From a virus, in the IMG/VR virus record IMGVR_UViG_3300036861_000585, positions 1 through 27,050 of that record: a DNA stretch of 27,050 bases. The stretch is one strand, 5' to 3'. Position numbers and translations under genes: made by a program. This document shows positions 3,199 through 27,050 of this stretch, piece after piece. The first letter of the stretch is position 1. Each line of letters opens with the position of its first letter. The notes under the pieces were generated by a model. It searched no databases and had not been told where the DNA came from. It saw nothing but the letters and a program-made list of their open reading frames with translations.

Positions 3199-4623
3199 AT
3201 GAAGCTGAGCGCCGCCGGTCTGAAGAAGCTCTGTAAGGCCGGCGGCAAGCGCGTCGACTACAGAGACGAAAGCCGACCCGGTCTCGTGCTGCGCGTCATG
3301 CCGACCGGCACCGCGTCCTGGGCGATCCTCTACAGCTTCCGCGGCGAGGACCGCCGCTACACCATCGGCCGCGTCAAGCTCGACGACAACGGGAAGGGCT
3401 TCACGCTCGGCGAGGCCTGGGAAGAGGCCCGCATCCTGCTCGGCCAGGTCGCGCGCGGCGTCGACCCACAGGCGGCCAAGATGGCGGAGCGCCGGGCGGC
3501 GCCGGCGCGGCCGACGCTCACGGTCGCCGAGGTCTCGCGCAAGGCGATGGCCGCGCTGACGCTCCGCCCCACGACGCGCAAGGAGTGGCAGCGCCTGGTC
3601 GATCGAGAGATCGTGCCCGCACTCGGCGACGAGCCGGCCGCGACGCTCCCGCGGGGCCGCATCCGCGAGTGGGCGCGCGAGCGAGCGGCGGAGGCGCACG
3701 GCGGCTACACCGCGAACCGAGCCTTCGAGGTTCTCCGTCGCGTCTACACCTGGGGCGTCGCCGAGGACCTGCTCCCGGGCACCCCGTTCGTCGGCCTGCA
3801 GCGGCCGGCGCAGGAGCAGCGCTCCGATCGCGTCCTGACCGTCCAGGAGCTGCGCGCGCTGCTCGTCGGCCTAGACCTCGTCGAGAGCCCGTACAGCGAT
3901 GCCGTGCGCCTGCTGCTGCTCACCGCGGCCAGGCGGGAGATGGTCCTGGGTGCCAGCCGCGGCGAGCTCCAGCTCGCAGGCGACGAGCCGACGTGGGTGG
4001 TACCCGGCGGGCCCGACGGACGATCGAAGAGCGGCGACGCCCACGTCATCCCGCTGTCTAAGACGGCCGTGGCCATCATGAAGCGCCGCCTCGAGGCCGT
4101 CGAGGAGGGCGAGCTGCTCTTCCCGCGCGCGCGGCCGCGCCGCCTCGGCGAGCCGTCGAAGCGCGACGCCGCGGTCTGGTCGTCCCGCTTCACCCGCGAG
4201 CTGCAGGCCGAGGTCGGCATCGCCTGGGCGACCGCGACCGGGAAGGGGATTCCGATGAAGAAGGTGCGGCGCGAGGGGAAGATGGTCGAGGAGGTCGACC
4301 GCGCCAAGGCGCGAGAGCTGGTGCCGCGCTGGACGCTCCACAACCTCCGCCACACGATCGCCACCCACCTGCGGGAGCGGCTGCGCGTCAGCGCCGACGT
4401 CGTGTCGCTCCTGCTGAGCCACACGCCCGAGGGACCGAGGGTGACCAGGACGTACCTCCGCGCGAAGCTCCTGCCCGAACGCAGGGCCGCACTGGAGGCC
4501 TGGGAAGGGTGGCTGGAGACGCTCCGAGAGGACGTCGGCCGTGTCCTCACCGGAGCCTTCGGGGTCGGAACGGGGTCGGAGCCTGCCGGCGGCACCCAGC
4601 CGAATCGGGACGAACCCAACTAG
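3199..4623 (+). CDS. int: Tyrosine-recombinase integrase, P4-like with DUF4102 arm
   Basis: 474 residues. It catalyses site-specific recombination between phage and host attachment sites. Residues 1-95 are the DUF4102-type arm-binding domain (YRDESRPGLVLRVMPTGTAS, then WAILYSFRG). Residues 105-205 are the core-binding SAM-like domain. The catalytic domain follows: Arg245 in TAARREM, Lys277 in RSKSG, His381-x-x-Arg384 in HNLRHT, His408 in LLSHTP and nucleophile Tyr419 in TRTYLR. All catalytic residues are present; the usual Glu after the first Arg is displaced (REM rather than RxxE). About 35 extra charged residues lie between 340 and 378. No strong ribosome site precedes ATG 3199. A tRNA-His 3' half lies 95 nt after the stop, the arrangement expected for this family, which commonly targets tRNA genes. 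Confidence 0.95.
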   Translation: MKLSAAGLKKLCKAGGKRVDYRDESRPGLVLRVMPTGTASWAILYSFRGEDRRYTIGRVKLDDNGKGFTLGEAWEEARILLGQVARGVDPQAAKMAERRAAPARPTLTVAEVSRKAMAALTLRPTTRKEWQRLVDREIVPALGDEPAATLPRGRIREWARERAAEAHGGYTANRAFEVLRRVYTWGVAEDLLPGTPFVGLQRPAQEQRSDRVLTVQELRALLVGLDLVESPYSDAVRLLLLTAARREMVLGASRGELQLAGDEPTWVVPGGPDGRSKSGDAHVIPLSKTAVAIMKRRLEAVEEGELLFPRARPRRLGEPSKRDAAVWSSRFTRELQAEVGIAWATATGKGIPMKKVRREGKMVEEVDRAKARELVPRWTLHNLRHTIATHLRERLRVSADVVSLLLSHTPEGPRVTRTYLRAKLLPERRAALEAWEGWLETLREDVGRVLTGAFGVGTGSEPAGGTQPNRDEPN

Positions 4624-4674: not shown

Positions 4675-5220
4675 ATGAATGAAGCGGAACGGGGCGTATC
4701 GGGAGTGAATGCCGGAAATCAGGTTGTGGCCCTGGAGGTCGCGGGTTCGAATCCCGTTAGCCACCCCACTCCTTCAACAACTTACAGGGAGCGGGACCGA
4801 AGCAAGGCCACACCGGGGTCGGACTGGGGACGGAACCTCGGCCGGCTACTATTCGCGATCGCCATGGCGACCACCAGCCTGGTTGCCGCCGCGCCGGCCG
4901 CGCGCGCCGCGGAGCGGCCGCCCGCCCTGGCCGAGGACGGCAAGACGTGCCCGCCGCCCACCGCCACGTACCAGCTCGAGGTCCAGTACCTTGAGCTGAA
5001 GACCATGGCCGGGACGATCGCGCCTGCGTCCATGCTCGAGTACGAGGTGAAGCTGGACACCGAGACGAGCATTATGACCGAGTCCGCGGTGCAGGCGCGC
5101 GCGCTCCAGATCACCCAGCAGGGGGCCGTGCTCGGCCCAGAGACCGATCGCCGGGCGATCCCGGCGCACCGCATCCAGTCGGTCTCGATCACGAAGGTGT
5201 CGACGATCGGCGCGCGGTAG
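4675..5220 (+). CDS. Unknown protein with internal signal peptide; frame crosses the att site
   Basis: 181 residues if started at ATG 4675, which has an excellent AGGAGG site 7 nt upstream. Residues 15-32 merely translate the tRNA remnant. Residues 48-77 (GRNLGRLLFAIAMATTSLVA followed by AAPAARA) look like a secretion signal with cleavage before AERPPAL, although such a signal would normally be N-terminal. An ATG at 4864 would keep only its second half. The mature part of about 105 residues (TYQLEVQYLELKTMAG onward) is beta-rich and unrecognised. The 3' half has phage-like codon use and is clearly coding; the true start is uncertain. It converges on the late operon, with a hairpin between. 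After integration it would lie just inside the prophage, downstream of the restored tRNA gene. Confidence 0.65.
   Translation: MNEAERGVSGVNAGNQVVALEVAGSNPVSHPTPSTTYRERDRSKATPGSDWGRNLGRLLFAIAMATTSLVAAAPAARAAERPPALAEDGKTCPPPTATYQLEVQYLELKTMAGTIAPASMLEYEVKLDTETSIMTESAVQARALQITQQGAVLGPETDRRAIPAHRIQSVSITKVSTIGAR
4719..4768 (+). other. attP: Phage attachment site: 3' half of a tRNA-His(GTG) gene
   Basis: The anticodon arm is intact: stem TCAGG (4719-4723) and CCTGG (4731-4735), loop TTGTGGC with anticodon GTG at 4726-4728. Then come variable loop AGGTC, T-stem GCGGG/CCCGT, T-loop TTCGAAT (4746-4752), acceptor strand TAGCCAC (4758-4764), C73 (the tRNA-His discriminator) and CCA (4766-4768). No 5' acceptor strand (GTGGCTA expected) or D-arm exists upstream, so this is not a complete tRNA. 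Integrating phages carry such 3' halves to restore the host tRNA gene. The exact crossover core cannot be fixed without the host sequence. Phage genes on both sides argue for attP rather than attL or attR. Confidence 0.85.
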
Positions 5221-9086: not shown

Positions 9087-9377
9087 CTACGCTGCCCCGG
9101 CCCGGCGGACGGCGCCGCGGCAGAAGAAGGGGTCCTGGTCCCGGCAGGCCTGCGGGCGGGTCTCGTGGATCGAGCAGGCGTGCCCCTGCAGGAACGTGCA
9201 CGCGCCCGCCGCGGTGCGCGGGATCTCGCCCACGTAGCCGCCCGGCAGGTCGGGCGCCGGCAGCAGCTGCGCCGCCGCAACCGCGCCGAGCCGGGCGACG
9301 TCGGCTGACGTCACGCCGACACGGAGGCCCAGCACGCAGCAGGCGGGGATCGGCAGCTGGCAGGTGAGGCAGCTCAT
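9087..9377 (-). CDS. YkgJ-family cysteine-cluster protein in the tail operon
   Basis: 96 residues; ATG at 9377 overlaps the preceding stop (ATGA). Cysteines at 3, 6, 13, 14, 60, 68, 78 and 86 follow the CxxC...CC...C...CSI...RPxxCR pattern of the YkgJ family (putative zinc- or iron-chelating domain). Typical elements are present: VGVTSADVARLGA, GACTFLQGHACSIHETRPQA and CRDQDPFFC. Cellular YkgJ proteins have unclear roles. Here the gene lies between the hub candidate and the fibres. In phage lambda the tail-tip protein L at a comparable place binds an iron-sulfur cluster, so a metal-binding tail-tip role is an attractive but unproved reading. An alternative is a cytoplasmic chaperone or modification factor for tail proteins. 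Confidence 0.85.
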   Translation of the reverse strand: MSCLTCQLPIPACCVLGLRVGVTSADVARLGAVAAAQLLPAPDLPGGYVGEIPRTAAGACTFLQGHACSIHETRPQACRDQDPFFCRGAVRRAGAA

Positions 9378-14108: not shown

Positions 14109-14570
14109 CTAGGTCGAGGTCGAACGCGTGAGGGTGAAGGTCGAGGCGATGCGGAACGACGCCTTGTTCTCGAGCAGGGCGCCGTGCGAGCCGTCGACCG
14201 GGGTGAAGGCGAAGCAGCGGACGGGCGTCAGGATGTAGCTCGGGTTCGTCCCGCTCACGCCGGCGTTGGTGGCGCGAAACTTCATGCGCACCTTGCTCTC
14301 GTTGTTCCAGAGGTTGAACAGGAGCTTGTCCGCGCCGGACGTCGCGGCCACCGTGGTCGTGAAGTCCTGCCGCAGGGTCACCTCGATCGGGATCGAGATG
14401 AGGCCCGGGTGGAAGGGCTCGCCGACGTCACCCATGACACCGTTCGCGAGCTCCGCCTTGCTGAAGGGGAACGACGCGGACTTGATGCCGGGGAGCGCGA
14501 CGTAGGTGCTGGACGCGGTCGACGTGGTCACCGCCACGAAGCCCGCCTTGAATACCGTGGGTTCGGCCAT
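14109..14570 (-). CDS. Major tail-tube protein 2
   Basis: 153 residues from ATG at 14570. The N-terminus AEPTVFKAGFVAVTTSTASS and the motif MGDVGEPFHPGL (residues 46-57) parallel the preceding gene (VAEPVLFK and MGDIGDCYVPGL), so the two are paralogues. The compact length and beta-rich content (SIPIEVTLRQDF, KVRMKFRATNAG, KASFRIASTFTLTR) fit the tail-tube fold, whose hexameric rings stack around the tape measure. Its place directly before G/GT is standard for the main tube subunit. The alternative is a tube-decorating protein. Confidence 0.8.
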   Translation of the reverse strand: MAEPTVFKAGFVAVTTSTASSTYVALPGIKSASFPFSKAELANGVMGDVGEPFHPGLISIPIEVTLRQDFTTTVAATSGADKLLFNLWNNESKVRMKFRATNAGVSGTNPSYILTPVRCFAFTPVDGSHGALLENKASFRIASTFTLTRSTST

Positions 14571-14582: not shown

Positions 14583-15362
14583 CTACTGGTTGGCGATCGC
14601 CAGCGTCACGAAGGCCGTGACCGACGTGCCGCCGCTCTTGGTCAGCACCGCGCGCCACCAGTCGTCGGTGATGGCTCCGTTCGTCTCGACCACCTGCTGC
14701 GTGATCGTGGTGGCGCCCGTGAAGGTCGCGCGGGTGAGAGGGCTCGGGAAGCCGGTCGCGTTGTCGCTCTCGATCGTCAGCGTCCAGGTGCCTCCGTTGA
14801 TGGCGACGACGTGCAGGACGGCGACGATCTTCTGGGTGGCGCTCAGGGCGCCGAGCTGGAACGAGGCGCCCGTGGTCGTGGCGGTCACGCTGGTAGCCGG
14901 CAGCACAACGGTGCCGCGGTAGAGGCCGCCGCCGCCGGTCGACTGCCGGGAAACGACCTCGTACTTCAAGGCCTCCCCGTGCTGGCCGCTGATGGGGTTC
15001 AGCGTGTACTGCTTCCCCACGACCGTGTATGCCAGGTTGCCGGCGACGCCCGGCGTCGCCGACGGCGCGTTCGGGGGGCACAGCGTGACGGGCCAGGCCA
15101 CCGATTCGACCGCGGGGTTCACCCGCGGGTACAGGATGGTGTCCGGCTCCAGCGAGGTCGCGATCGCGTCCGCTGACCAGAAGCCGCCCGCGGTCAGCGT
15201 GATGTCCTGGAGGCCGGGGACGTAGCAATCGCCGATGTCGCCCATCCGCTTGCTGACGATCTCCTTCTTCGCCGCGCGGAGCACGACCTGGTCGATCGAG
15301 CCGTGAAGCGGGTACGGTCCGACGTAGAGTCGGCAGTCCTTGAAGAGAACGGGCTCAGCCAC
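14583..15362 (-). CDS. Tail-tube protein 1 with a C-terminal extra domain
   Basis: 259 residues from a GTG at 15362, preceded by GGAGG and overlapping the previous stop by 8 nt; the frame upstream is open but non-coding in character. Residues 1-130 carry the tube-like core (AEPVLFKDCRLYVGPYPLHG, then KRMGDIGDCYVPGLQDITLT). Residues 150-259 form a beta-sandwich seen in other phage virion proteins: GASFQLGALSATQKIVAVLH, GGTWTLTIESDNATGFPSP, AITDDWWRAVLTKSGGTS. This domain likely points outward from the tube or replaces a tube-cap function. Paralogous to the next gene. It could be the principal tube protein, with the shorter paralogue minor, or the reverse. Confidence 0.75.
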   Translation of the reverse strand: MAEPVLFKDCRLYVGPYPLHGSIDQVVLRAAKKEIVSKRMGDIGDCYVPGLQDITLTAGGFWSADAIATSLEPDTILYPRVNPAVESVAWPVTLCPPNAPSATPGVAGNLAYTVVGKQYTLNPISGQHGEALKYEVVSRQSTGGGGLYRGTVVLPATSVTATTTGASFQLGALSATQKIVAVLHVVAINGGTWTLTIESDNATGFPSPLTRATFTGATTITQQVVETNGAITDDWWRAVLTKSGGTSVTAFVTLAIANQ

Positions 15363-15573
15363 CGACCACCTCCAGCGCCGCGCCGCATGCGCGGCAGACC
15401 TTTCGATCGGAATCGCCCATGGCCGGCGCGTCGAGGATGTCGGCGGACCCGCAGGCCGGACACTTCGCGACCGCCTCGAGCCCCTCGTCCGCGGCGCGCG
15501 CGCGCTCGAGCGCCAGCAGCTCCCGCAGCGTGGCCAGGATGTCGCGCAGGATCGCGATCTCTTCCTTAGCCAC
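15355..15573 (-). CDS. Small coiled-coil zinc-ribbon protein
   Basis: 72 residues from a GTG at 15573 that overlaps the tail-terminator stop by 8 nt. Residues 3-35 are a strongly helical, heptad-like stretch (EEIAILRDILATLRELLALE), followed by a zinc ribbon with C38/C41 (CPACGS) and C60/C63 (CRACG). Linking helix and ribbon is common in proteins that dimerise and touch nucleic acid or a protein partner. Both its start and its stop overlap neighbours, so translation is coupled to tail genes. No known tail function fits; it may be an assembly factor. Longer readings upstream are low-quality sequence. Confidence 0.7.
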   Translation of the reverse strand: MAKEEIAILRDILATLRELLALERARAADEGLEAVAKCPACGSADILDAPAMGDSDRKVCRACGAALEVVGG

Positions 15574-16394: not shown

Positions 16395-16717
16395 AGGAGG
16401 ATCTGCGTGTGGTCGAGGTTGAGGCCCGCGATCGGGCGGACGGCCATGATGGGCGGCTGGCTCGGGGCGAATCCCGCGGGCATCGTGAGGCGCGACCGGA
16501 CGTCGACGGCGACGCGGTTGGGGATGATGATCTGCGCCGTGCTGCGCGTCTCGCGTCCGTTTCGAGGATCGATGATCCGCTCCGTGTACGGCAGGACCTG
16601 CGCGCGGTACGTGACGGCGGCGCCGTACGTGGGCACCTGGGCGGCCGTCTGCGACACGAAGGGCTCGATCGTGACGGTGTCGGTCATGAGCGAGAGCATC
16701 GTGGTGGCGAGCGTCAT
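16391..16717 (-). CDS. Head closure / head-tail joining protein
   Basis: 108 residues from ATG at 16717, overlapping the connector stop as ATGA; the frame continues upstream to 17254 only as an anti-coding shadow. Short beta-rich protein: DTVTIEPFVSQTAAQVPTYG, AVTYRAQVLPYTERII, then STAQIIIPNRVAVDVRSRL. This is the pattern of SPP1 gp16/HK97 gp7-type stoppers that close the connector channel after packaging. Its place between the connector and the gp10-like protein agrees. Confidence 0.8.
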   Translation of the reverse strand: MTLATTMLSLMTDTVTIEPFVSQTAAQVPTYGAAVTYRAQVLPYTERIIDPRNGRETRSTAQIIIPNRVAVDVRSRLTMPAGFAPSQPPIMAVRPIAGLNLDHTQILL

Positions 16718-17628
16718 GCGGCCCTCACGTACGAGGACAGGAGGCCCACGCACATCGCGGGCAAGCCGGAGCCCACGACGCCGCCCGTGAGCTCCGAGAC
16801 TGAGGCGCCGCGGTCGAAGCGGATCCGCATGGCGCCGACCTGCTTCTCGGCGACGTTGCTGTCGTCGCCGCGGCCGGCGTACCAGGTCTTCACGGCCTCG
16901 ATCGCGGCCTTCTCGACGTCCCGCGGGATGCTCTGCACCAGGAGGCCCTTGGTGGCGGCCGCCGCCTCGTTCACGAGCGTGATGCCGGAGACGATGATCT
17001 TCCCGGCCGTGGCGGACACGACGGTGCCAACCTGGTTGTTCGCCTCGGCGGTCCAGCCGATCCCCTGAACGGTGTCGCCGGCGACGAGCAGCGACGGAAA
17101 CAGGAGGGCCGAGTCGTTGAAGCTGTTGTCGGCCGACGCCACGGACACGGTGCCGCTGAGCCGGTTCTGCTGGGGCAGCAGGTAGCCGGCCGTGTAGGCG
17201 ACCGCGAAGAGGGGCTCCTCCTGGCGCGGCAACGGCAGGCCGCGGCCGGGCCACCGCTGCCAGCCGGACAGGCCCGCGATCGACTGCACCGACCAGGCCC
17301 AGCCGCCGCGGCGGTAGAGGGTGCCGGCGCCGGCGTCGTCGATCGAGTAGTCCGTGATGATGCCCGAGTCCTTCGTCACCGACGAGACGCTGATGATCGG
17401 CGTCCGCTCGAGCTTCAGCAGGAAATCGCCGTAGCCGGGCACGGTCTCGGTGAGGACCTCGCGCGCGAACGGCCGACGGCAGAACGACACGATCGCGGAC
17501 GAGGCCTCGTCGATGAGGTCGTCGAAGAGAGCGTCGTCGTCGGTGCCCGTGATGCCGAGCTCCGCCTTCACCTTCTCCTTGCGAGTCAGCCGCTGGCTGA
17601 CCGCCGCCGTGGTGACGGTGAGGGCCAC
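16714..17628 (-). CDS. Head-tail connector (HK97 gp6-like) with beta-rich insertion
   Basis: 304 residues from a GTG at 17628, five bases after the preceding stop. Residues 15-60 (TRKEKVKAELGITGTDDDAL, then FDDLIDEASSAIVSFCRRPF) are the helical start of the gp6 family, and 236-262 (PRDVEKAAIEAVKTWYAGRG) its closing helix. The protein forms a ring below the portal that links head to tail. Family members are usually 100-190 residues. Here about 75 extra residues lie between YTAGYLLPQQN and IPRDVEK (about 156-234) and read as a beta domain (SGTVSVASADNSFNDSALLF; VAGDTVQG; GTVVSATAGKIIVSG). Confidence 0.87.
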   Translation of the reverse strand: MALTVTTAAVSQRLTRKEKVKAELGITGTDDDALFDDLIDEASSAIVSFCRRPFAREVLTETVPGYGDFLLKLERTPIISVSSVTKDSGIITDYSIDDAGAGTLYRRGGWAWSVQSIAGLSGWQRWPGRGLPLPRQEEPLFAVAYTAGYLLPQQNRLSGTVSVASADNSFNDSALLFPSLLVAGDTVQGIGWTAEANNQVGTVVSATAGKIIVSGITLVNEAAAATKGLLVQSIPRDVEKAAIEAVKTWYAGRGDDSNVAEKQVGAMRIRFDRGASVSELTGGVVGSGLPAMCVGLLSSYVRAA

Positions 17629-17632: not shown

Positions 17633-18037
17633 TCACCCCCGCGCCTTCCGCACGCGCGGCCGGCGGACCATCTTGTCGCGCGGCGGCGCCGCGGGCGCCT
17701 TGGTGGCGAGGCTGACCTCGCCGGCGGCCGGAGCCTCCGCGAGCGCCCCACCCTGCTCGTCCGACAGCTCGAGGGCGCCCGGGCCCGGACCGCACGTCGC
17801 GCAGGGCTCCAGACCGCCCGTGCCGAACCGGACGTTCTCTAGCTCGGCGTTGTTGCCGACCTTGCACTCCCAGGACGTGTGCCAGCGGGAGCCGCCGGCG
17901 GCATGGAAGGGGCCGGCCGGGACGGCCAGGCCGCGCGCCACCAGGTGGAGGCCGCGGACGGCGTCCACGTCCACCAGCTCGCCGGGCACGCGCGGGCCCC
18001 AGGGCTGCACCATCTTCACCGGCGCGAGTTCGCTCAT
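17633..18037 (-). CDS. Small protein with Ada-like zinc-binding motif
   Basis: 134 residues; ATG at 18037 overlaps the CMP-sugar synthetase stop (ATGA). Residues 52-83 (WHTSWECKVGNNAELENVRF, then GTGGLEPCATCG) have H53, C58, C79 and C82 in an arrangement like the Ada/thermonuclease-type metal-binding motif (H-x4-C...PCxxC). In Ada one Cys in this motif takes up methyl groups; here only metal binding is implied. The first 40 residues (KMVQPWGPRVPGELVDVDAV) resemble a small beta domain of virion-adjacent proteins. The C-terminus is Ala/Glu-rich, then basic (KMVRRPRVRKARG). Function unknown; last gene of the non-structural island. Confidence 0.65.
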   Translation of the reverse strand: MSELAPVKMVQPWGPRVPGELVDVDAVRGLHLVARGLAVPAGPFHAAGGSRWHTSWECKVGNNAELENVRFGTGGLEPCATCGPGPGALELSDEQGGALAEAPAAGEVSLATKAPAAPPRDKMVRRPRVRKARG

Positions 18038-18741
18038 GCGGTGGCCCCCAGCGGCGCGCGCATCAGCGCGTCCGCGATCAGCACGTCGCGCTCGACGTCG
18101 ACGTCGACGGCCCGCTCGTTCGGGTGCACCTGCAGGCGGCACCTGTGCTCGAGCGGAAGGCGCCGGTGCGTGCTCAGGACGACGGCCGCCCTGGTCACCA
18201 CGACCGAGCCGTCGAAGCGCCAGCAGAAGTCGGCGGCGGTCATCTGCTGCAGCTGCACCCAGCGGCCGCCGATGCGGCGCCAGTCGGCCTGGTCGGAGAA
18301 CTCGGCCCTGGAGTGGTTCACGAACAGGAACGCCTGCGGTTCCGCGTAGGCCGTGAAGCACGCATCCGATGCCGTGTCGACCAGGCGGCGGATGGCGCCG
18401 TCGATCAAGCCCTCGGCGCGCAGCGGGCATGTCGGCTGCAACGTCACCACCAGGTCGGGCAGCGGGTCGCACGACCGCAGGACGGAGAGGAGCACCCCGT
18501 CGATCGACGCGTTGTCGGTGGCGAGGATGGGATCGCGGTGATGGACGTCGGCGCCGAGCTCGCGCGCGATGCCGGCGATCCCCGCGTCGTCCGTGCTGAC
18601 CACGACGCGGGTCACCAGCAGCGCGCGCTGCGCTGCCTCGATCGACCAGGCGAGCAGCGGGCGGCCCCCGACGGGTCGGAGGTTCTTGCCGGGGACCCGC
18701 TTGGAGCCGCCGCGCGCCGGGATCACCGCGAGCACGTTCAC
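18034..18741 (-). CDS. CMP-nonulosonate (sialic-acid-type) synthetase
   Basis: 235 residues from a GTG at 18741 in a GTGA overlap. It should join CTP to a nonulosonic acid (sialic, pseudaminic, legionaminic or related) to give the CMP-sugar donor plus pyrophosphate, in the cytoplasm. Motifs: nucleotide-binding VIPARGGSKRVPGKNLRPVG (residues 6-25), VVVSTDDAGIAGIARELGAD (47-66), ATDNASIDGV (74-83), LQPTCPLR (101-108, usually LQPTSPLR), FDGSVVV (176-182, for the usual NGAIYV) and VHPNERAVDVDVERDVLIAD (205-224). Length is normal for NeuA/PseF. All main motifs are intact, so it is probably active; which sugar cannot be said. Unusual inside a head gene block; a GT42-like protein lies three genes upstream. 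Confidence 0.9.
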   Translation of the reverse strand: MNVLAVIPARGGSKRVPGKNLRPVGGRPLLAWSIEAAQRALLVTRVVVSTDDAGIAGIARELGADVHHRDPILATDNASIDGVLLSVLRSCDPLPDLVVTLQPTCPLRAEGLIDGAIRRLVDTASDACFTAYAEPQAFLFVNHSRAEFSDQADWRRIGGRWVQLQQMTAADFCWRFDGSVVVTRAAVVLSTHRRLPLEHRCRLQVHPNERAVDVDVERDVLIADALMRAPLGATA

Positions 18742-18992
18742 TCCGGCACCTCCGGCGGCGCCGCTGCGGCGGAGGTGTGGAGACCGAGCTTGCGCAGCTC
18801 GTCCTTCGAGGCCGCGCGGAGCGGCACCACCACATTGTCGCAGCAGTCGCAGAGCTGCTCGAGGAGCGTCGCGTCGCACCGGAGGCACCCGTAGATCGCC
18901 AGCCGGACCGCGCGCAGGCGATCGGGCGTCCTCTCGCCGCCGCGCAGGTGTCCCTGCGCCTCGCACGATTCCTGACAGCGTGGACACCTCAT
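18738..18992 (-). CDS. Small zinc-finger protein
   Basis: 84 residues; ATG at 18992 overlaps the preceding stop (ATGA) and its stop overlaps the next GTG (GTGA). Cysteines C3/C6/C10, C36/C39 (CLRCD) and C48/C50/C51 suggest one or two zinc sites of ribbon type. The C-terminus (LRKLGLHTSAAAAPPEVPE) is flexible. Function unknown. Translational coupling on both sides ties it to the sugar-activation gene, but it may equally be a general late accessory. Confidence 0.7.
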   Translation of the reverse strand: MRCPRCQESCEAQGHLRGGERTPDRLRAVRLAIYGCLRCDATLLEQLCDCCDNVVVPLRAASKDELRKLGLHTSAAAAPPEVPE

Positions 18993-19399
18993 ACCGCCCC
19001 CCGGAAGCCGCGGGCCTCGTCCTGGCGCCGCTCGTGTTCGACCAGCAGCCGCTGGCCCTCCTCTTCCTTCGCGACCTCGTCGGCGAGGCGCTCCTTGGCC
19101 AGGCGTGCCCGCTCCGCGAGCTGCGCGCGCCCCATGGCCTCCATGCGCGCGCGCACCTGGCGCTGGTACTCCTCGGGGTTCTCGCGCTCGAGGCGCAGCC
19201 GCTTCTCGGTCGCCGCGGCCGCCGCACGGGCCTCCTTCTCCTGCTCCTGCTTCGCGGAGACGTGGGCCTTGTTCTTCTCGTCGAAGGGCTCGATGTAGCC
19301 GGCCACCAGGTAGGCGGCGGCCTTCCCGAGGAAGAACGTCTCGACGCGGCCGGCCGGGATCCCTGACAGGTCGACCTTGACGTAGAACTCGCCCTTCAC
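18989..19399 (-). CDS. Coiled-coil protein, function unknown
   Basis: 136 residues from a GTG at 19399, overlapping the preceding stop in GTGTGA. Residues 1-40 form a small beta domain (VKGEFYVKVDLSGIPAGRVE, FFLGKAAAYLVAGYIEPFD). Residues 45-130 are almost entirely charged helix (Glu/Lys/Arg/Ala/Gln-rich, e.g. ERENPEEYQRQVRARMEAM), a long coiled coil. There are no cysteines. It could be a small virion, scaffold or assembly protein. It comes after the major capsid gene, which is unusual for a scaffold (normally before it). Confidence 0.65.
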   Translation of the reverse strand: MKGEFYVKVDLSGIPAGRVETFFLGKAAAYLVAGYIEPFDEKNKAHVSAKQEQEKEARAAAAATEKRLRLERENPEEYQRQVRARMEAMGRAQLAERARLAKERLADEVAKEEEGQRLLVEHERRQDEARGFRGAV

Positions 19400-20274
19400 A
19401 CCCGGCCTCCCCGCTGGTACAGCTGGAGGCGCGTGAGCATGGCGCGCACCATCTGCAGGGCCCCGTCGTCCGTGTGGGACTGCATCCGGGCCATGTCCTG
19501 AGCGGCCTGGTGCTTCGCGATCGCGTCGACGAGCTGCTTCTCCTGGATCTTCAGGGAGGCCACCAGCTCGCCCAGCAGCGGGTTCTCCTGCTCGTACCCG
19601 TACCGGTGCAGCTGCCGCATCAGCGCCGAGCGCGCATGCGTCGTGACCTTGATGCCGCGCGCCTCGGCCATCGCCAGGTGCCACTCGGCACACGGTCGCT
19701 GGTCGGCGTACTCGGTGTCGTGGGCCAGGTCGATGCCCCAGAGGCCTATCTCGGCGACGTCGGCCTGGGCCGCGGCGAGCGCGATCATGTAGGCGACGGT
19801 GCTCGTGAAGTAGTCGCGGCCGACGGCGCCGATCACATCGGCGATCGGGTACGCCCGCACCGACGGGAACTCGGGCGCCGCGTCCAGCATCAGGATCGGA
19901 AACGGGTGCACCCGCTCGAGCCACCGTTCCTGCGCATCGCCGAAGCCGGCGCGGCGGCCGTAGTCGCGGGTGTACTCGATCGTGTGCATGTCGAACCAGA
20001 GGGCGTACCGCTCCTCCGGGATGGAGAGTCCGAAGTCGGGCTCCGCCGCGCGCCAGAAGCCGTTCATGCCCCACAGCTCCCAGCTGGGGTCGGCGACGGG
20101 CGCGTCCTTCACGGTCTCCGCGAAACCCAGGATGGCGACACGACGGGTGCGCATCGGCTGCGCGTCCGGGGTGAAGCTCACCTCCGGCAGCGGCAGCAGA
20201 GGGGAACGCCCCGCCGTCCAGGAGTCGGACGGCGGGGCGTCGGAGCCGATGACCGGCTGGGAGTCCAAGGTCAC
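19396..20274 (-). CDS. GT42-like putative glycosyltransferase
   Basis: 292 residues from GTG at 20274, four bases after the previous stop; ATG at residue 41 is an alternative start. Residues 44-85 form a nucleotide-fold-like start (RRVAILGFAETVKDAP; WELWGMNGFWRAAEPDFGL), with ALWFDMH at 91-97. Residues 155-183 (YFTSTVAYMIALAAAQADVA, then EIGLWGIDL) closely resemble the S/T-x-xxAxxxAxxxG-x-EIxLxGID core of GT42 sialyltransferases and of DUF115-type proteins. EYADQRPCAEWHLAMAEARG follows. GT42 enzymes use CMP-sialic acid, the type of product expected from the synthetase three genes downstream. The C-terminal 55 residues are coiled coil. Catalytic residues cannot be assigned by eye, and similar phage proteins are usually annotated hypothetical, so moderate confidence. 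Confidence 0.6.
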   Translation of the reverse strand: MTLDSQPVIGSDAPPSDSWTAGRSPLLPLPEVSFTPDAQPMRTRRVAILGFAETVKDAPVADPSWELWGMNGFWRAAEPDFGLSIPEERYALWFDMHTIEYTRDYGRRAGFGDAQERWLERVHPFPILMLDAAPEFPSVRAYPIADVIGAVGRDYFTSTVAYMIALAAAQADVAEIGLWGIDLAHDTEYADQRPCAEWHLAMAEARGIKVTTHARSALMRQLHRYGYEQENPLLGELVASLKIQEKQLVDAIAKHQAAQDMARMQSHTDDGALQMVRAMLTRLQLYQRGGRV

Positions 20275-20278: not shown

Positions 20279-20875
20279 CTAGCTGACCTTGTAGGGGACG
20301 GTGACCTGCGGCAGCTGGTTGCCGCCCAGGAGCAGGACCGGGCTGTTGGCGATGAGCTCGGACTCGGTCGACGTGTCCTTCGTGCCCGTGTTCGACGCCT
20401 TCCGCCAGGCGAACGTGACGTTCGCCTTGTAGAACTTGTCCGGGGCCATCAGGTTGCAGTCGGAGATGAGGCCGGTGTGGAAGATCGCGTCCGTGTCCGT
20501 GCCCATCTTGAAGCGGAACACGTCCGTCTTCAGCGTGCGCCAGGACGAGCCGGCGCCGGCTGCCGACGCGCGCGTCTTGTGCGCGACGGTGATGTACGTG
20601 TTGACGCCGGACGAGTGGGCAACGAGCTCGAGCGGGATCGCGACGGCGATCGAGCGCCAGATGGGCGGGCCCGCCTGGCGGGTGTGGACGGTGGCGTCGA
20701 ACGGCTTGCCGCCCGTCGTGCCGAAGTGCAGCGCGCGGCTCAGGTCGATCGTGCGGGACGTCAGCGCGACCGAGCCCGTGTCCGACGTCCGGATGAACCA
20801 GCGCGCGGTGGAGGTGGTCAGCGGCAGGACGGCCGAGACCGCGTTGCCGATCGAGCCGAGGGCCGAAGGGGTCAT
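20279..20875 (-). CDS. Virion protein candidate following the major capsid gene
   Basis: 198 residues from ATG at 20875. Beta-rich throughout: TARWFIRTSDTGSVALTSRT, RSIAVAIPLELVAHSSG, TYITVAHKTRAS, TDVFRFKMGTDTDAIFHTGL, NVTFAWRKAS. No cysteine-rich, helical or enzymatic motif. Its place 30 nt after the major capsid gene suggests a head decoration or cement protein, or another abundant virion protein. I do not recognise the family. It ends four bases before the glycosyltransferase-like gene. Confidence 0.65.
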   Translation of the reverse strand: MTPSALGSIGNAVSAVLPLTTSTARWFIRTSDTGSVALTSRTIDLSRALHFGTTGGKPFDATVHTRQAGPPIWRSIAVAIPLELVAHSSGVNTYITVAHKTRASAAGAGSSWRTLKTDVFRFKMGTDTDAIFHTGLISDCNLMAPDKFYKANVTFAWRKASNTGTKDTSTESELIANSPVLLLGGNQLPQVTVPYKVS

Positions 20876-20905: not shown

Positions 20906-22219
20906 CTACGTGGCGTAGCCGGTCTTGATCGCCGCGGCTTCCTGGTACCGCTGCTGGAAGTCGTGCTCCGCGATGCAGGTGACGACCGTCTCGTCGTTCG
21001 AGATGCCGGACTGGATCGTGCCGGTCTCGTCCTTGTAGGCGCCGCCGCGGAAGACCTCGACGGTGCGCTGCATCGAGTCCCAGATGACCATCGAGGGGCC
21101 GTGCAGGAACATCACCATGCCGGCGCTCGCGCCGATCCAGGCGTTCGTGACCTCGAACTGCGTGGTCAGGTACACCGGGAAGCCCATGATCGTGGGGCGC
21201 GCCTGCTCGAGGCCGGCCTTGAAGACCCAGTCGCCGGTGGTCGTGGTCAGCGCGTAGATCGTCCAGAAGGTGGAGACCGACATCACGAAGCCGCTGTTCT
21301 GCGGCGTGACCGGGATGTTCCTCTTCTGAACGTCGCGGATCAGCGACGTGAGGTCGCTCTGGAAGTTCGCCAGCGTGGCGCCGGCGGAGGCGCTGACGTT
21401 CAGCGCCAGCGTCTGGTAGCGGACGCCCTGCGGCGAGCCGGTGTCCACCGGCGGGTTGCCGAGGAAGAAGGCGCGGTCCTCGCGCAGCCCCGAGACGGCC
21501 AGCAGGTCCTCCTGGACCATCTGGTCGACGTCCGGGCCGCCGAAGCGGATCTCGTCGTTGCTGACGACGGTCGCGGCCGTGAGCTTCTTGTAGCTCATGT
21601 TGGTCTTGCCGACCGTGAGGCCGCTCGGCACGATGGGCCCGAGCTCGCCCTGGTACGACGCGGTCGCGGTGCCCGTCTGCTTCCGCTGGGTGATGGCGCC
21701 GCGCGGCATCGACTTCGTCCGGACCCCGGGCATGCCGCGGAACACCGCGTTGTTGCGCAGGAGCGTGATCCACTCCTCGTCGTACATCGGGATCACGATG
21801 TCGCCGGCGCTCGCGGGCGTGCCGACCGTGAGGCCCTTGTCGGCCTTCATGGCCTGCTGCTCGTGCTCGAGCCACTTGATCGTGGGCTCGGCGAGCGTGG
21901 GCGCCCAGGACCGCTTGATGGCGAACTTCGCGGCGTCCAGGTCCATGGAGCCGTTCTCGATCGCGGCCATGGCCAGGGCCCGCGCCTTGCGCCCGTACGG
22001 GTGCTTGCCGAGGCCCTTCCTGATCTCGTCGGTGACGGACGCCGGCGAGGGCTTCAGCAGCTTCTCGAACCCGGCCAGCGTGTCCGAGGTGCTCTTGCGC
22101 AGCGGCTCGAGCGCGAGCTCGATCGCCGGGGCGAGCGCCGACTTCAGGGACTCCCCGACGAGGGCGTTGAGCTCCTCCGGGGACATCGCCTTGACGGCGG
22201 GGTTGGGCTGCGTGGACAT
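20906..22219 (-). CDS. Major capsid protein, HK97 fold
   Basis: 437 residues from ATG at 22219 with an AGGAGAGG site; the frame upstream of this ATG is an anti-coding shadow of the protease gene. Residues 1-125 are helical (MSPEELNALVGESLKSALAP onward) and probably form the delta/scaffold domain removed by the prohead protease. Residues 140-437 fit the HK97 coat: DIVIPMYDEEWITLLRNNAV, GPIVPSGLTVGKTNMSYKKL, VSNDEIRFGGPDVDQMVQED, FLGNPPVDTGSPQGVRYQTL, GFPVYLTTQF and the last strands. Order portal, protease, capsid is classical. Confidence 0.92.
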   Translation of the reverse strand: MSTQPNPAVKAMSPEELNALVGESLKSALAPAIELALEPLRKSTSDTLAGFEKLLKPSPASVTDEIRKGLGKHPYGRKARALAMAAIENGSMDLDAAKFAIKRSWAPTLAEPTIKWLEHEQQAMKADKGLTVGTPASAGDIVIPMYDEEWITLLRNNAVFRGMPGVRTKSMPRGAITQRKQTGTATASYQGELGPIVPSGLTVGKTNMSYKKLTAATVVSNDEIRFGGPDVDQMVQEDLLAVSGLREDRAFFLGNPPVDTGSPQGVRYQTLALNVSASAGATLANFQSDLTSLIRDVQKRNIPVTPQNSGFVMSVSTFWTIYALTTTTGDWVFKAGLEQARPTIMGFPVYLTTQFEVTNAWIGASAGMVMFLHGPSMVIWDSMQRTVEVFRGGAYKDETGTIQSGISNDETVVTCIAEHDFQQRYQEAAAIKTGYAT

Positions 22220-22227: not shown

Positions 22228-23211
22228 CTAGTCGAAGCGGCCGGTGGCGCGGTTGACCGCGCCCTTCGCCGCCTCCGAAACCGCGGCCACCACGGCCGCC
22301 TTCACGTCTTCCGGGTTCACGAGCAGGGACGCCGACGCCAGCGGCATCGGCTCGGTGAGCAGCAGGGCGAGGGGCGCCGCCTTCTCTGGCGCCGGAACCG
22401 GGACGGGCGCGAGCTCGTCGAGCGCCACGAAGAGCGCCGCCGTGGCGTCGCCGGCGGCGCGCACCTGGTCGGCGGTCGCCTCGGTCAGCGCGCGGCCGCG
22501 CTTCTCCAGCTCGGCCAGGAACGGCGCGGGGTCGAAGCCGGCGACGCGCGGAGCGGACAGCGTCTTGAAGGCCTCTAGCGCCTTCGACTGCGGCACCCAG
22601 ACGCCAGGCTCCTCCGACGCGGCATCGAGTACTCCCTCCGCCCAGCGGAGGAGCGGCGCCATGTCGATCCCCATCCGCTTGCCCTCGATGAGAGCCTCGG
22701 GGTTCGCGGGCACCGGGACGATGGAGTACTCGAGCAGCTCCTGCTTCGTGAAGTCGTAGCCGCCGCGGTCGTCGTCCCACGCCCACTCGAGCGGGTTGAA
22801 GCCGACGGACACCGCGCGCAGGAACTTCGCCTTCACCATGCGGAAGACCGTGTCGGCGAACGGGTAGAGGTCGACGTCGGCGAACTTGCAGGTGGAGCGC
22901 AGCTGGCCCGCGGACACGAGCGTCTTCTCGGACTGGCCGACCGGCAGTCCGCGGTAGTCGTGGGCCCACAGGACGACCGGATTCTTTCGGTAGTTCGCGA
23001 GCGCCCATCCGCCCGGACGCAGCGAGTCGCGATCGCGGTCCTCGACGCCCGTGCTGATGACGAACGTGAGCTTCCGGTCCTCGTCGTCGCCCTCGGCCTT
23101 GATCTCGTCGGCAACGAACTGCTTCCGCAGGACGGCATCCGCACGAGGGTTGCCCGCCTTCGCGGCCGCCTTCCAAGTGTCCAGGTCCGTGATGACCGGC
23201 TGGGGCTGCAT
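22228..23211 (-). CDS. HK97-type prohead protease
   Basis: 327 residues from ATG at 23211, with only a weak CCAGG site; an open extension to 23337 overlaps the preceding gene and is unlikely. It cleaves the delta domain of the capsid protein and itself during head maturation. The protease fold is at residues 45-175: KLTFVISTGVEDRDRDSL, VVLWAHDYRGLPVG with His84, LRAVSVGFNPLEW with Ser135, and LLEYSIVPVPANPEA, all typical of the S78/U35 group. The C-terminal 150 residues are Ala/Glu-rich and helical, longer than the minimal protease, and may act as an internal scaffold that is cut away. Confidence 0.9.
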   Translation of the reverse strand: MQPQPVITDLDTWKAAAKAGNPRADAVLRKQFVADEIKAEGDDEDRKLTFVISTGVEDRDRDSLRPGGWALANYRKNPVVLWAHDYRGLPVGQSEKTLVSAGQLRSTCKFADVDLYPFADTVFRMVKAKFLRAVSVGFNPLEWAWDDDRGGYDFTKQELLEYSIVPVPANPEALIEGKRMGIDMAPLLRWAEGVLDAASEEPGVWVPQSKALEAFKTLSAPRVAGFDPAPFLAELEKRGRALTEATADQVRAAGDATAALFVALDELAPVPVPAPEKAAPLALLLTEPMPLASASLLVNPEDVKAAVVAAVSEAAKGAVNRATGRFD

Positions 23212-23242
23212 TACCTGGGCATCGTGAGCGGCACGGGCCAGG

Positions 23243-23470
23243 TCAAGGAATGGGCCTTGTACAACTGTGCGGGGTTTCTTTCGCCATCTCGTTGCGGACC
23301 AGCTGCTCCACCACCGCCGCCATCGAGGCCTGGCCACCCTCGCGCAGCGCGCGGTCTGCCGCCGTCTGTCGCAGCCACTCCCACGCGCGGCGGCTCAGGG
23401 TCATGTTCGTGTTGACCTTCGGGCGACGCGGCGGAGGGACGAGCATGACGGCGGGGATGACCGCGCTCAT
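23243..23470 (-). CDS. Ribbon-helix-helix protein inside the head operon
   Basis: 75 residues from ATG at 23470, overlapping the preceding stop (ATGA). VNTNMTLSRRAWEWLRQTAA (residues 19-38) gives the beta strand and helix A, and ASMAAVVEQLVRNEMAKE (48-65) helix B: an Arc/CopG-like fold. A DNA-binding regulator between portal and protease genes is uncommon; it might regulate late or host genes, or be an antitoxin-like relic with no toxin partner visible. An alternative is a structural mimic. A longer reading to 23602 is an anti-coding shadow. Confidence 0.7.
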   Translation of the reverse strand: MSAVIPAVMLVPPPRRPKVNTNMTLSRRAWEWLRQTAADRALREGGQASMAAVVEQLVRNEMAKETPHSCTRPIP

Positions 23471-23676
23471 CGGACGCGGTAGGGTCCCTCGCACTGATCG
23501 AGCAGGAGCTTTCCGTCGACCACCATCGGCTGGCCGCTCTCCCCGGGCCTGGAGAGGCTGACGATGGCGACGCCACCGGGGCGGTGAGCCACCTCTACGC
23601 AACGGTCAGTCACGTCGCGACCGTCGACGACCACCCGCGGATCCCGGCTGCCGTTGGCCCAGGTCAGCTCGATCAA
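23467..23676 (-). CDS. Small hypothetical protein after the portal gene
   Basis: 69 residues. The start is a TTG at 23676 in TTGA overlap with the portal stop, and the stop overlaps the next ATG. The sequence is a small beta protein: LIELTWANGSRDPRVVVDGR, DVTDRCVEVAHRPGG, VAIVSLSRPGE, MVVDGKLLLDQ. Regular strand-turn repeats suggest a compact virion-associated or accessory domain. No family recognised. Overlaps at both ends support that it is translated. Confidence 0.6.
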   Translation of the reverse strand: MIELTWANGSRDPRVVVDGRDVTDRCVEVAHRPGGVAIVSLSRPGESGQPMVVDGKLLLDQCEGPYRVR

Positions 23677-25037
23677 GCCGCGGCTCCCTTCTTGTCGTCC
23701 TTCTTCGACTCGTCGTCTTCGGCGGGCGGCGGTGTCGTGGGCGCCGGCCCCTTCGGCCGCTGCATCTGGTCGAGGAGGTCGGTCGTCGCGTAGCTGGCCA
23801 GCGGCACCATTCGGACCGTCGAGTTGAGCGGTCGGGCGCCGGCGCGGCGCCGCCACTCGTCCTCGGTGAAGGCCCAGGGCGCGGCCTTCATGACGCTCAG
23901 CTGGTCCGCCTTGTCCTCTTCGATCGGCGAGACGAAGTGAACGATCGCCCGCTCGTCGTACTCCTCCTGGGCGAGACGCTGCAGGTCTCGGCGCAGGCGC
24001 TCTGCCTTGGGCGTGATGACCCACTTCGCGAAGAGGTATTCCGCGGCGTCGATGGTGGCGCGGTTGCTGTTCTCGACGATGCCGAAGAGCTCCGGAGATG
24101 TGCCCCACACCTGCAGCACGATGTCGCGCTGCGATTTCCGCAGGCCCGGGTAGACGAGCTGGTCGAGCTGCGTCTTCGTGAACTCGTGGAACTTGGGCTC
24201 GCCCATCACGAAGTAGGGCTTGTCCTGACGCCAGAAGCCCTGATTGCGCGCGTTCCAGTCGTACTCGAGGCGCTTCGCCTCCTTCGCGTCGGTGAATCCG
24301 TAGACGACGAAGTCGGGGCGCGCGCGGTTCCAGAACAGCTGCCGCGCCATCTTCGCGGCGTACTCGTCGACCTCGAGCTCGTCGCCGAGCGTCCAGCCGA
24401 TGCCGGAACCTCGCGCGTATGGGTGGACCGGCGCCGCCTCGTGGAAGCGGTGCACCTCGCTCTCGGGCACCACGACCTGCCAGCTGCGGTACCCGAACCG
24501 GTACGTCGGGTCGCTGGGCGTCGGCGTGTCCATCACCCAGTGCGGGGGGATCGGCCAGAAGCCGCAGGGCTTGCCGAGGCCGTTGCGCTCCTTCAGCCAG
24601 AAGGCGTCGCCGACCAGGTCGTAGTGGATCTCCGTGATCTTCAGCAGACCGACGCGGGTCATGAAGGGGTTCGGGCGCTCGAGCGCCTCGACATACGGAT
24701 GGTCGAGGATCACCTCTGCGCTGCCCGCCTCCAGCAGAGGGCCCAGCAGCTTCTCGCGCCGACCGCTGGCGGCGCGCTCGATCGCCGCGCTCTTCACGAA
24801 CTTGCCCGAGGGGCCTCGTACGCCGAGCAGCTGCCAGTCGAGGCCCGAGACGCCGAGCCCGACCTTATCGGCGACGGCGCGCAGCCAGGGCATCGAGTCG
24901 AAGCCCTCGAGCATGTCCTGCGTGCCCATCACCGGAGCGTCGCCCTGGGCGCTCGGCAGGATGCCGGAGACGATCCCCTGCGCGCCGCCCGGCATCTTCG
25001 TCGGCGGACGGTAGCCGTCGAGGCCCAGCTGGATCAT
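23673..25037 (-). CDS. Portal protein, HK97-type
   Basis: 454 residues from ATG at 25037, eight bases after the terminase stop, with GGGAAG upstream. It forms the twelve-fold ring at one capsid vertex through which DNA is packaged. Landmarks: WLRAVADKVGLGVSGLDWQL (residues 51-70), HPYVEALERPNPFMTRVGLL, HYDLVGDAFWLKERNGLGKP, WPIPPHWVMDTPTPSDPTYR, VVPESEVHRFH, GSGIGWTLGDELEVDEYAAK, then the SPELFGIVENSNRATIDAAE stem helix region. The C-terminus is Pro/Asp/Lys-rich. Full length for the family. Confidence 0.9.
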   Translation of the reverse strand: MIQLGLDGYRPPTKMPGGAQGIVSGILPSAQGDAPVMGTQDMLEGFDSMPWLRAVADKVGLGVSGLDWQLLGVRGPSGKFVKSAAIERAASGRREKLLGPLLEAGSAEVILDHPYVEALERPNPFMTRVGLLKITEIHYDLVGDAFWLKERNGLGKPCGFWPIPPHWVMDTPTPSDPTYRFGYRSWQVVVPESEVHRFHEAAPVHPYARGSGIGWTLGDELEVDEYAAKMARQLFWNRARPDFVVYGFTDAKEAKRLEYDWNARNQGFWRQDKPYFVMGEPKFHEFTKTQLDQLVYPGLRKSQRDIVLQVWGTSPELFGIVENSNRATIDAAEYLFAKWVITPKAERLRRDLQRLAQEEYDERAIVHFVSPIEEDKADQLSVMKAAPWAFTEDEWRRRAGARPLNSTVRMVPLASYATTDLLDQMQRPKGPAPTTPPPAEDDESKKDDKKGAAA

Positions 25038-25045
25038 GGCTTCCC

Positions 25046-26533
25046 TCACACCATCCGGATCGGTGATCGCACGGTGCTCTCGAGGCCGAGCAGCGCAGTG
25101 ACAAGCCAGACCAGGGCGTCCATCCGGTTCGGGCTCGGCATCTTCAGGCGCGGATCCCACGACACCATCTCGCTCTCGAGCTTCTGCAGGCGGTCGGGGT
25201 CGCGGCGGTCGCGCACGTGGTGCACGCGGCCGTGCTCATAGGCGGCGGATACCGGCTCCGCGCGGGTGCGCTTCCCGTCAGTGGCGGTGACCTCGATCCA
25301 CTTCACCGCGGCATCGACGGATCGGAACGTCTGCTTCGTCGCCTCCTCGAGGCGGTTCTTTTCCAGGACGATCGCCTCGGCGCCGTGCTGGTTCAGGGCA
25401 GCGACGGCGACACGTGCCCACTGCAGGGGCGTGCCGCGCATGCTGGCGTCCTCCCAGACGTAGACGTGGCCGTCCTCGCCGAGGCCGCCGGCCATGATCC
25501 CGGCCTCGTCCGTGGGAGAGTCGGACCTCGTCGGGTCGACCGCCACGAGCTTCCGCACCATCCGGGGAACGCCGGCGACGCGGTGCGAGTCGATGTTCTC
25601 CAGCGTGAAGAGGGCGCCGGCGACCTTCACCAGGATCTTGCCGTCGAGCTCCTGCTCCTCGAGGGCGGTGCCGCGCAGGTCGTGGCGCCACTCGGCGATG
25701 ACGCCGGGCGCCAGGTTGGCGCTGTTCCGCTCCGACGACCAGCGGCGGCAGGCGACGACGTACTGGTGCTTTACGCCGTCCTGGTCGGTGAGCTCGTGCT
25801 CGATCGACCACTCGCCGCTGTCGATCTGCTCCTGCGTGACGGAGCGCTTACCGCCCTGACCCTCGGGCCCGAGCAGCATGTCGGCGCAGAAGGCCGTGCG
25901 GCGCGGCGACGAATCGATGATCCCCTGCGGGTTGTCGCCGATGCGCAGCGCGAGCTTGATGCCCTCCTGCCAGGCCGGCGGCTCCTTCGCCCCCTTCGGG
26001 ATGTTCCAGTGGAAGAGCTCGGTCAGCCAGGCCTTGTGGTAGTTCGGCCCGCGCAGCGTGTCCGGCTCCTCCGCGGTGTGGAGCTCGGCCACCGTCTCGT
26101 TCGGCCAGACGATGAGCTTGTCGGTCTTGTACCAGCGCGGCTTGAACCAGGGCGGCGATCGCCGGAAGAGACCCGACTCGCCGCCCAGCATGACGCGGCG
26201 CACGCGGCCGGCGTCGCGGCCGATGAAGGCCATACGGATCCCGGGCTCGTCCCAGGCCCACTCGATGACCGGCTCCACGGCGGCGCGCGTCTTGCCGCCG
26301 CCGCGGCCACCACACATCACCCACCAGCGCCAGCCAGGCGGTGGCTCCAGCTGCTCTGGCCGCGCGTGCAGCAGCCACTCCCAGTCGAGGGCGCGCAACG
26401 CGCGCAGCGTGTCCCTGGAGAGCGAGAGCAGCGCTTCCTGCTGCTGGTCGTCGTTGAGGCGCTTCAGCTCGAGGCACAGATCGGACAGCGCCTGTACCTC
26501 GGCCTGCGTCGCGCCGAACCTACCCAGCTGCAC
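25046..26533 (-). CDS. terL: Terminase large subunit
   Basis: 495 residues from a GTG at 26533, with GGAGG upstream and overlapping the small-subunit stop by 14 nt. It is the ATPase and nuclease that packages DNA into the prohead. Walker A GGRGGGKT is at residues 75-82. The region LRGPNYHKAWLTELFHW (160-176) aligns with the LRGPxxxxxWxDELxxW Walker B segment, but Asp is replaced by Thr171; Glu172 is kept. The RNase-H-like nuclease has Asp333 (VAVDPTRSD), Glu391 (IVLEKNR) and Asp472 (SPNRMDALVW). The type of packaging (cos or headful) cannot be decided from these motifs by eye. Confidence 0.95.
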   Translation of the reverse strand: MQLGRFGATQAEVQALSDLCLELKRLNDDQQQEALLSLSRDTLRALRALDWEWLLHARPEQLEPPPGWRWWVMCGGRGGGKTRAAVEPVIEWAWDEPGIRMAFIGRDAGRVRRVMLGGESGLFRRSPPWFKPRWYKTDKLIVWPNETVAELHTAEEPDTLRGPNYHKAWLTELFHWNIPKGAKEPPAWQEGIKLALRIGDNPQGIIDSSPRRTAFCADMLLGPEGQGGKRSVTQEQIDSGEWSIEHELTDQDGVKHQYVVACRRWSSERNSANLAPGVIAEWRHDLRGTALEEQELDGKILVKVAGALFTLENIDSHRVAGVPRMVRKLVAVDPTRSDSPTDEAGIMAGGLGEDGHVYVWEDASMRGTPLQWARVAVAALNQHGAEAIVLEKNRLEEATKQTFRSVDAAVKWIEVTATDGKRTRAEPVSAAYEHGRVHHVRDRRDPDRLQKLESEMVSWDPRLKMPSPNRMDALVWLVTALLGLESTVRSPIRMV

Positions 26534-26972
26534 CGAACCTCCGGAGCATGCGCTGCACCTCGGCGACGGCGGCGCCGTTGTCGGGACGCTGCTCGGCACT
26601 GCCCTTTCCGGTGTCCGGTTTCCCCCATCCGAGCGCGTGCTTGAGGCTGGCGAGGACGGCGTTGACCTTCCCGTCGCCGCCCCGGCGGAGACGCTTGACG
26701 TCCTCGAGCAGCTCGACCTGGTGCTGGGCCTCGCCGCGTTCGATCTCCAGCTGGAAGCGCGCGAGGACTTCGGGGTCGCGGAGCTGCTCGGGCAGCAGGC
26801 CGAGAGCGCGGACGATAAGGTCGCGGTCGGCGCCGAGACGCGCGTAGCGGCGGACGATGGTCCACTTGATGCCGCCAGGACCTGGCCGCTCGCGTGGCCG
26901 ACCAGCGCCAGGCCGAGCGCCACCGCGCCCAGGGCCCTTCTGTTTCGCCTTCGATTTACGATCACGCGCCAC
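26520..26972 (-). CDS. terS: Terminase small subunit
   Basis: 150 residues from a GTG at 26972. The N-terminal Gly/Arg segment (GRGGARPGAGRPRERPG, residues 15-31) is typical of many small terminases and precedes a helix-turn-helix-like part (RYARLGADRDLIVRALGLLP). Next comes a helical oligomerisation region (RFQLEIERGEAQHQVELLED) and a C-terminal tail (ALGWGKPDTGKGSAEQ) that probably contacts the large subunit. It recognises phage DNA at the packaging start. First gene of the visible late block; the stop overlaps the large subunit's start. Confidence 0.8.
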   Translation of the reverse strand: MARDRKSKAKQKGPGRGGARPGAGRPRERPGPGGIKWTIVRRYARLGADRDLIVRALGLLPEQLRDPEVLARFQLEIERGEAQHQVELLEDVKRLRRGGDGKVNAVLASLKHALGWGKPDTGKGSAEQRPDNGAAVAEVQRMLRRFGAAG

Positions 26973-27050
26973 ACGGCCGCGCCCCGCGCGGACGGGATGC
27001 CTGCGTCAGCGGTCGAGCGGCCCCGATTTTCGTGGGTCTCGCGAGAGAGG
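26973..27050. other. Region upstream of the terminase genes
   Basis: 78 bases with no complete gene. It contains the palindrome TCTCGCGAGA near the edge (about 27037-27046) and GC-rich inverted segments. A packaging (cos or pac) site or the end of another gene could lie here or just beyond the edge; nothing here identifies either. Confidence 0.3.

Follow-up and report, generated by a model that had tools for sequence, protein, structure and literature searches.

Sialic-acid-like sugar chemistry is otherwise associated with animal cells and bacterial surfaces, and the product of NeuA, a nonulosonic (sialic-type) acid coupled to cytidine monophosphate (CMP), is the donor used by glycosyltransferase family 42 (GT42) enzymes. 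Phage virion glycosylation is already known: in mycobacteriophages (Che8, Corndog, Myrna), phage transferases glycosylate capsid and tail proteins (Freeman et al., 2023, via PMC12363180), and the part of that source which describes them mentions no CMP-nonulosonate synthetase or GT42-fold enzyme. Here we analysed a 27,050-nt stretch of viral DNA (IMG/VR virus record IMGVR_UViG_3300036861_000585, positions 1 to 27,050; hereafter the window), probably a fragment. On its minus strand, inside the head gene block, it encodes a 292-aa protein with a predicted GT42-like fold (19396-20274) and, as the third gene downstream, a NeuA-type CMP-nonulosonate synthetase (18034-18741). An earlier sequence-only reading had placed both genes there and knew of no described phage system with this layout; likewise, our search of the open-access literature turned up no account of phage head operons that pair NeuA with a GT42-fold enzyme. 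The gene family and the sugar class appear to differ from those of mycobacteriophage glycosylation, and within the literature searched it is the nonulosonate chemistry and the GT42-fold gene family that would be new to phage virion glycosylation.

We give about even chances to the proposal that the pair is a late virion nonulosonate-transfer system using host-made sugar. Late in infection, the NeuA-type enzyme would couple a host-supplied nonulosonic acid to CMP, and the 292-aa protein, acting as a transferase with CMP-nonulosonate as donor, would transfer the sugar from CMP to a protein of newly made virions. The acceptor would most likely be the capsid protein or a 198-aa decoration-type protein encoded just upstream. 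A broader proposal is more tentative, and we rate it somewhat short of even: that a GT42-fold transferase family whose active site differs from that of GT42 (His97 and Glu188 nearly invariant, the His lid absent) forms, with NeuA and sometimes NeuB, a system widespread among phages that puts sialic-type sugars on their own head proteins. If true, it would give phages their first known case of virion nonulosonate glycosylation within the literature searched, and it would define a new glycosyltransferase family; some environmental phages would coat their particles with sialic-acid-like sugars, which bears on persistence, adsorption and escape from recognition. The proposal also offers a testable role for a phage protein family missing from PHROGs.

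The synthetase and the 292-aa protein

The NeuA gene starts with GTG, overlaps the stop codon of the preceding gene and is served by a GGAGGT ribosome site. A profile of the window NeuA and its relatives aligned over its full length to solved NeuA structures, bacterial and mouse, with expect values (E) of 4.5e-51 to 1.5e-40. The protein keeps the CTP_transf_3 domain with the N-terminal nucleotide-binding motif (IPARGGSKR.PGKN), and the nucleotide- and Mg-binding residues R10, K19, N20, Q102, T104, D213 and D215 are retained; in the alignment, D213, D215 and Q102 correspond to the Mg-binding D209/D211 and to Gln104 of the Neisseria meningitidis enzyme. By its sequence, 18034-18741 encodes a full-length NeuA-type CMP-nonulosonate synthetase of the CTP_transf_3 family. 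The sequence-only reading had called it a complete NeuA/PseF-type synthetase. Its length and NeuA type stand. The PseF model (TIGR03584) gives 96 bits, far under its curated cut-off of 205.7 bits, and the sugar therefore cannot be named. The motif RxPRRQD of the NeuA group resembles that of mouse CMAS; unlike the NeuA/CMAS enzymes at large, the window protein falls in a phage-only clade of the group NeuAs (support 99/94) with no cellular members in the tree. The ratio of nonsynonymous to synonymous substitution rates (dN/dS) for NeuA, 0.18-0.32, indicates purifying selection, as does that of the gene for the 292-aa protein (0.07-0.25).

The 292-aa protein gave no match with a meaningful E in Pfam, PHROGs, NCBIfam or PDB sequence searches. 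An alignment of 38 family members was the input for an AlphaFold model (predicted local distance difference test, pLDDT, 89), in which residues 1-40 are disordered, 43-221 form a Rossmann-like domain and 232-287 a long C-terminal helix. On realignment to PDB entries with VIA-align, the ten best entries were all GT42 sialyltransferases (Cst-I, Cst-II, Pasteurella), with Z 10.4-11.1 over 152-164 residues of the Rossmann-like core. The GT42/DUF115-like core proposed in the sequence-only reading, for which a comparison with CstII had been suggested, is borne out in this order, GT42 first and the DUF115-type protein MptE next. GT42 was absent from the top 50 of Foldseek alone and was seen on realignment only. 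The family profile searched against PDB sequences found Cst-II-type proteins as best matches at a weak E of 0.03, in agreement with a structural top ten made up entirely of GT42 entries. In the profile alignment, GID is matched to the GID of Cst-II, the EY-motif Tyr to Tyr162, and S158/T159 to T131/S132; these residue numbers follow our own offset. H97, G180, D182, E188 and Q192 are invariant or nearly so across the family, and His97 or Glu188 may be the catalytic base. Against the CST-I family PF06002, the window protein was unmatched and one of the 38 family members scored E 0.0035; a PF06002 search across phage records had no match anywhere, controls included, and is hence uninformative. 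The family likewise has no Pfam match to MptE-like/DUF115 (PF01973).

Head operon, linkage and recurrence

The pair lies in a head gene block with the following features, in minus-strand gene order; tail genes follow the connector.

25046..26974, minus strand: terminase large subunit, start uncertain (Pfam Terminase_6C/6N)
23673..25160, minus strand: portal protein (Pfam Phage_portal, 1.8e-30)
22228..23337, minus strand: prohead protease, S78 (Pfam Peptidase_S78, 4.8e-9; PHROG head maturation protease)
20906..22219, minus strand: major capsid protein (PHROG major head protein, 4e-24)
20279..20875, minus strand: 198-aa Ser/Thr-rich beta protein (predicted model all-beta)
19396..20274, minus strand: GT42/DUF115-fold candidate nonulosonate transferase, 292 aa (AlphaFold model, structural realignment)
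18989..19399, minus strand: 136-aa protein, a short conserved N-terminal domain followed by a charged coiled coil (tblastn to relatives)
18738..18992, minus strand: 84-aa Cys-rich (CxxC) protein (no family match)
18034..18741, minus strand: NeuA-type CMP-nonulosonate (cytidylyl)synthetase, 235 aa (Pfam CTP_transf_3, 7.6e-22)
17633..18037, minus strand: 134-aa protein directly 3' of NeuA (4-nt overlap with NeuA)
16714..17622, minus strand: head-tail connector/adaptor (PHROG head-tail adaptor, 2.3e-25)

Both genes of the pair have coding-type composition. Overlaps of 4 nt (GTGA/ATGA) join five genes, from the gene of the 292-aa protein (GT-like below) through the coiled-coil, Cys-rich and NeuA genes to the 134-aa gene, and this chain sits between the major capsid protein and the connector. 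No sigma-70-like promoter was found across 16.5-22.5 kb of the window. The late head-operon location with coupled translation, as the sequence-only reading had it, is thus upheld, and the candidate transferase gene is encoded among virion genes, as is expected of a member of a phage virion glycosylation system.

Nine related loci (loci are numbered with L) were found first with the 292-aa query and more with alignments; a scan of viral contigs for close relatives with the single NeuA sequence returned nothing, and an alignment query was needed. Both genes are present in the head block of all 11 group records that cover the sites (the window, L002, L004, L006, L007, L009, L010, L013, L016, L045 and L048), the records L002 and L007 covering NeuA only in part. 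The position of NeuA varies: in most it lies between portal and protease, in L045 and L048 it overlaps the GT-like stop codon, and in the window it is three genes after the GT-like gene. Together with the single phage-only clade of the group NeuAs, these positions indicate that NeuA has been retained for long in the group and has moved about inside the head block. Two more distant records with the same capsid-GT-connector order (L023, L024) have no NeuA in the available sequence. In L013, the usual copy after the capsid gene is joined by another, divergent GT42-like copy at 777-1347, which lies upstream of NeuA.

NeuB was found in none of 15 group records, including records of 43.7, 43.3 and 42.2 kb, and in 29 of 40 other viral NeuA records. 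The absence of sugar-making genes noted in the sequence-only reading thus extends to the group, so the group would depend on its host for the sugar, while the cassettes of other phages do include NeuB. A scan of bacterial genomes with the GT-like family found no relatives; the NeuA relatives in bacterial genomes are cellular and stand beside no phage genes of the group, and the host was not found.

Of the 65 viral NeuA loci outside the group, 13 contain a member of the GT-like family (E <=1e-26), compared with 0 of 80 viral rmlA loci and 0 of 55 cellular NeuA loci. Since one cassette is shared by L055 and L056, 13/65 amounts to about 12 independent loci. The Fisher p of 1.4e-5 compares viral NeuA loci with viral rmlA loci, which may differ from them in phage type. 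To avoid circularity, the training set of the hidden Markov model (HMM) behind these counts was limited to the window and loci from the GT-like query; an earlier HMM that included NeuA-derived members gave the same association. The repeated adjacency in phages that the sequence-only reading had wished to see looked for is therefore present both in the group and beyond it. A 4-nt overlap joins the two genes in L045, L048, L055 and L116, and they lie within about 200 bp of each other in L080, L030 and L104. Among 14 records with GT-like and NeuA genes outside the group, seven have NeuB and three a NeuC-type epimerase, with a DegT aminotransferase and a hexapeptide-repeat transferase each in single loci.

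The transferase-NeuA(-NeuB) cassette recurs independently in unrelated head blocks. The gene order in L080 is portal, S49 protease, capsid, a 131-aa protein, GT-like, NeuA, a small open reading frame, methyltransferase, NeuB and connector, and L030 shares this order; in L056 it is capsid, GT-like, NeuA and connector. From these gene orders we concluded that different phage lineages, those of L080/L030 (with NeuB) and of L056, two further capsid lineages, each acquired the cassette in the slot between capsid and connector. The tree gives the NeuAs that partner GT-like genes elsewhere more than one origin, and the GT-like family elsewhere adjoins terminase, portal or capsid genes.

Alternative explanations

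Several findings weigh against a working transfer system, and they are taken here with the explanations that they favour. The first is decay in the window phage: its NeuA, having moved and lacking the Arg that contacts the sugar carboxylate, may be inactive, the transferase being left with a host CMP-sugar or with nothing. In N. meningitidis NeuA, Arg165 was docked onto the sugar carboxylate in a salt bridge, and the R165A mutant is inactive (PMC2901514). The window protein has Leu164 at this position; Arg is retained in 14 of the 17 sequences aligned. From the Arg motif to the DGS motif, the window protein aligns with its phage relatives without gaps (L045 RRQDMVARELMYHEDGS versus window QLQQMTAADFCWRFDGS), so the substitution is independent of gap placement. 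In one relative, the NeuA gene (L043:4749-5444) has two in-frame stops (TGG to TAA, TGG to TGA) compared with the near-identical L042, and the frames of the head genes beside it are open. Loss of catalytic residues, which the sequence-only reading had named as fatal to its proposal, is partial in the window copy: the Arg is gone, whereas the nucleotide- and Mg-binding residues are kept. The intact frame and the strong ribosome site also speak against decay, and the neighbouring Arg160 could compensate. Overall we regard decay as unlikely but a serious contender, and the window NeuA may have altered specificity or be weakened.

The second is that the 292-aa family consists of Rossmann-like proteins other than glycosyltransferases, with a pyrophosphokinase-like or morphogenesis/packaging role, NeuA being independent cargo of the same hot spot. 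After the GT42 entries, the next structural matches of the model were MptE HPPK (M. jannaschii, DUF115-type) at Z 9.5, SteA, thiamine pyrophosphokinase and the human GT29 sialyltransferases (6.4-6.6), so that in fold the pyrophosphokinase MptE comes almost as near as GT42. His188 is the catalytic residue of Cst-II (PMC4202792), and the lid segment that bears it is missing from the family, in which His97 and Glu188 are conserved instead. Because this lid is absent, the modelled protein is best described as a relative that shares the GT42 fold but has another active site, and not as a demonstrated GT42 enzyme; it further differs from GT42 in its long C-terminal helix, its place in phage head operons and its lack of detectable sequence membership. 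Many phages, including Microcystis phage Mvi-Yong1342-1, carry the GT-like gene without NeuA in the available sequence, and many of the family members adjoin terminase. This explanation is rather unlikely in our view, given the NeuA association far above control, the four 4-nt overlaps with NeuA and the presence of NeuB in the same records.

It is improbable, by our estimate, that both enzymes modify the host surface (capsule, lipopolysaccharide or cell-wall glycan) and thereby mask the receptor against sister phages or change the lysogen. The GT42 enzymes known to date have cell-surface glycans as their targets (PMC4202792), there are phage enzymes, epaA/epaB, that alter nonulosonate capsules of the host (PMC12053666), and the integrase at 3199-4623 marks the phage as temperate. 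On the other hand, the translational coupling within the head operon and the failure to find a separate promoter favour late rather than lysogen expression, and recurrence between capsid and connector genes in unrelated phages would be unexpected for surface-modifying morons. Hypermodification of phage DNA by the pair is very improbable: virus-encoded glycosyltransferases that put diverse glycans on DNA are known (Pyle, 2024, as cited in PMC12619734), but none of the annotated window genes was recognized as a DNA-base hypermodification gene, known GT42 enzymes act on glycans, and the pair is located among head, not replication, genes.

Neighbouring proteins and minor observations

In all close relatives whose sequence covers the site, the 198-aa gene directly precedes the GT-like gene. 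Its model is all-beta (pLDDT only 70), with viral jelly-roll matches at Z ~10 that are generic only, and the protein is a candidate decoration protein and a candidate acceptor. The 136-aa protein matched L003-L009 by tblastn (43-55% over the N-terminal 38-62 aa), and its gene is also directly 3' of the GT-like gene in relatives. The 84-aa Cys-rich protein had no library family match and no tblastn match in related loci, in which the 134-aa protein 3' of NeuA also had no homologue.

One of 50,697 cultured-phage records, searched with four queries, contained a GT-like family member: L011:7905-8708 of Microcystis phage Mvi-Yong1342-1 (PP496355), annotated as 'type 11 methyltransferase' and directly upstream of the terminase small subunit. 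L012 (FPLJ01000048) was rejected as a phage NeuA match, being a Moritella viscosa bacterial polysaccharide contig in a phage collection. Two GT-like family members per phage record were seen in L088, L101, L103 (whole record) and L056. In L104, a DUF115/MptE-like protein (3406-4131; E 1.1e-5, under the curated cut-off) stands beside the GT-like gene and NeuA. In loci L054-L118 of viral contigs, NeuA with NeuB is common, in many without a GT-like gene. Near phage NeuA/NeuB, the proteins at L114:11919-13025, L101:5874-7139 and L105:7613-8923 look by eye like PseA-type sugar amidotransferases; one was checked and had no Pfam match.

The window integrase is a tyrosine integrase with Pfam arm-binding, central and catalytic domains. 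Beside it, ~4718-4768 can be read as a tRNA 3' half (tRNA-His-like, with a GTG anticodon), an unconfirmed reading with no ARAGORN tRNA or Rfam tRNA match; integrase and tRNA-like half together likely mark the attachment site of a temperate phage. Among the tail genes, 9087-9377 encodes a putative metal-chelating CxxCxxCC protein, and 14109-14570 and 14583-15566 are probable tandem paralogues, both queries cross-matching in relatives.

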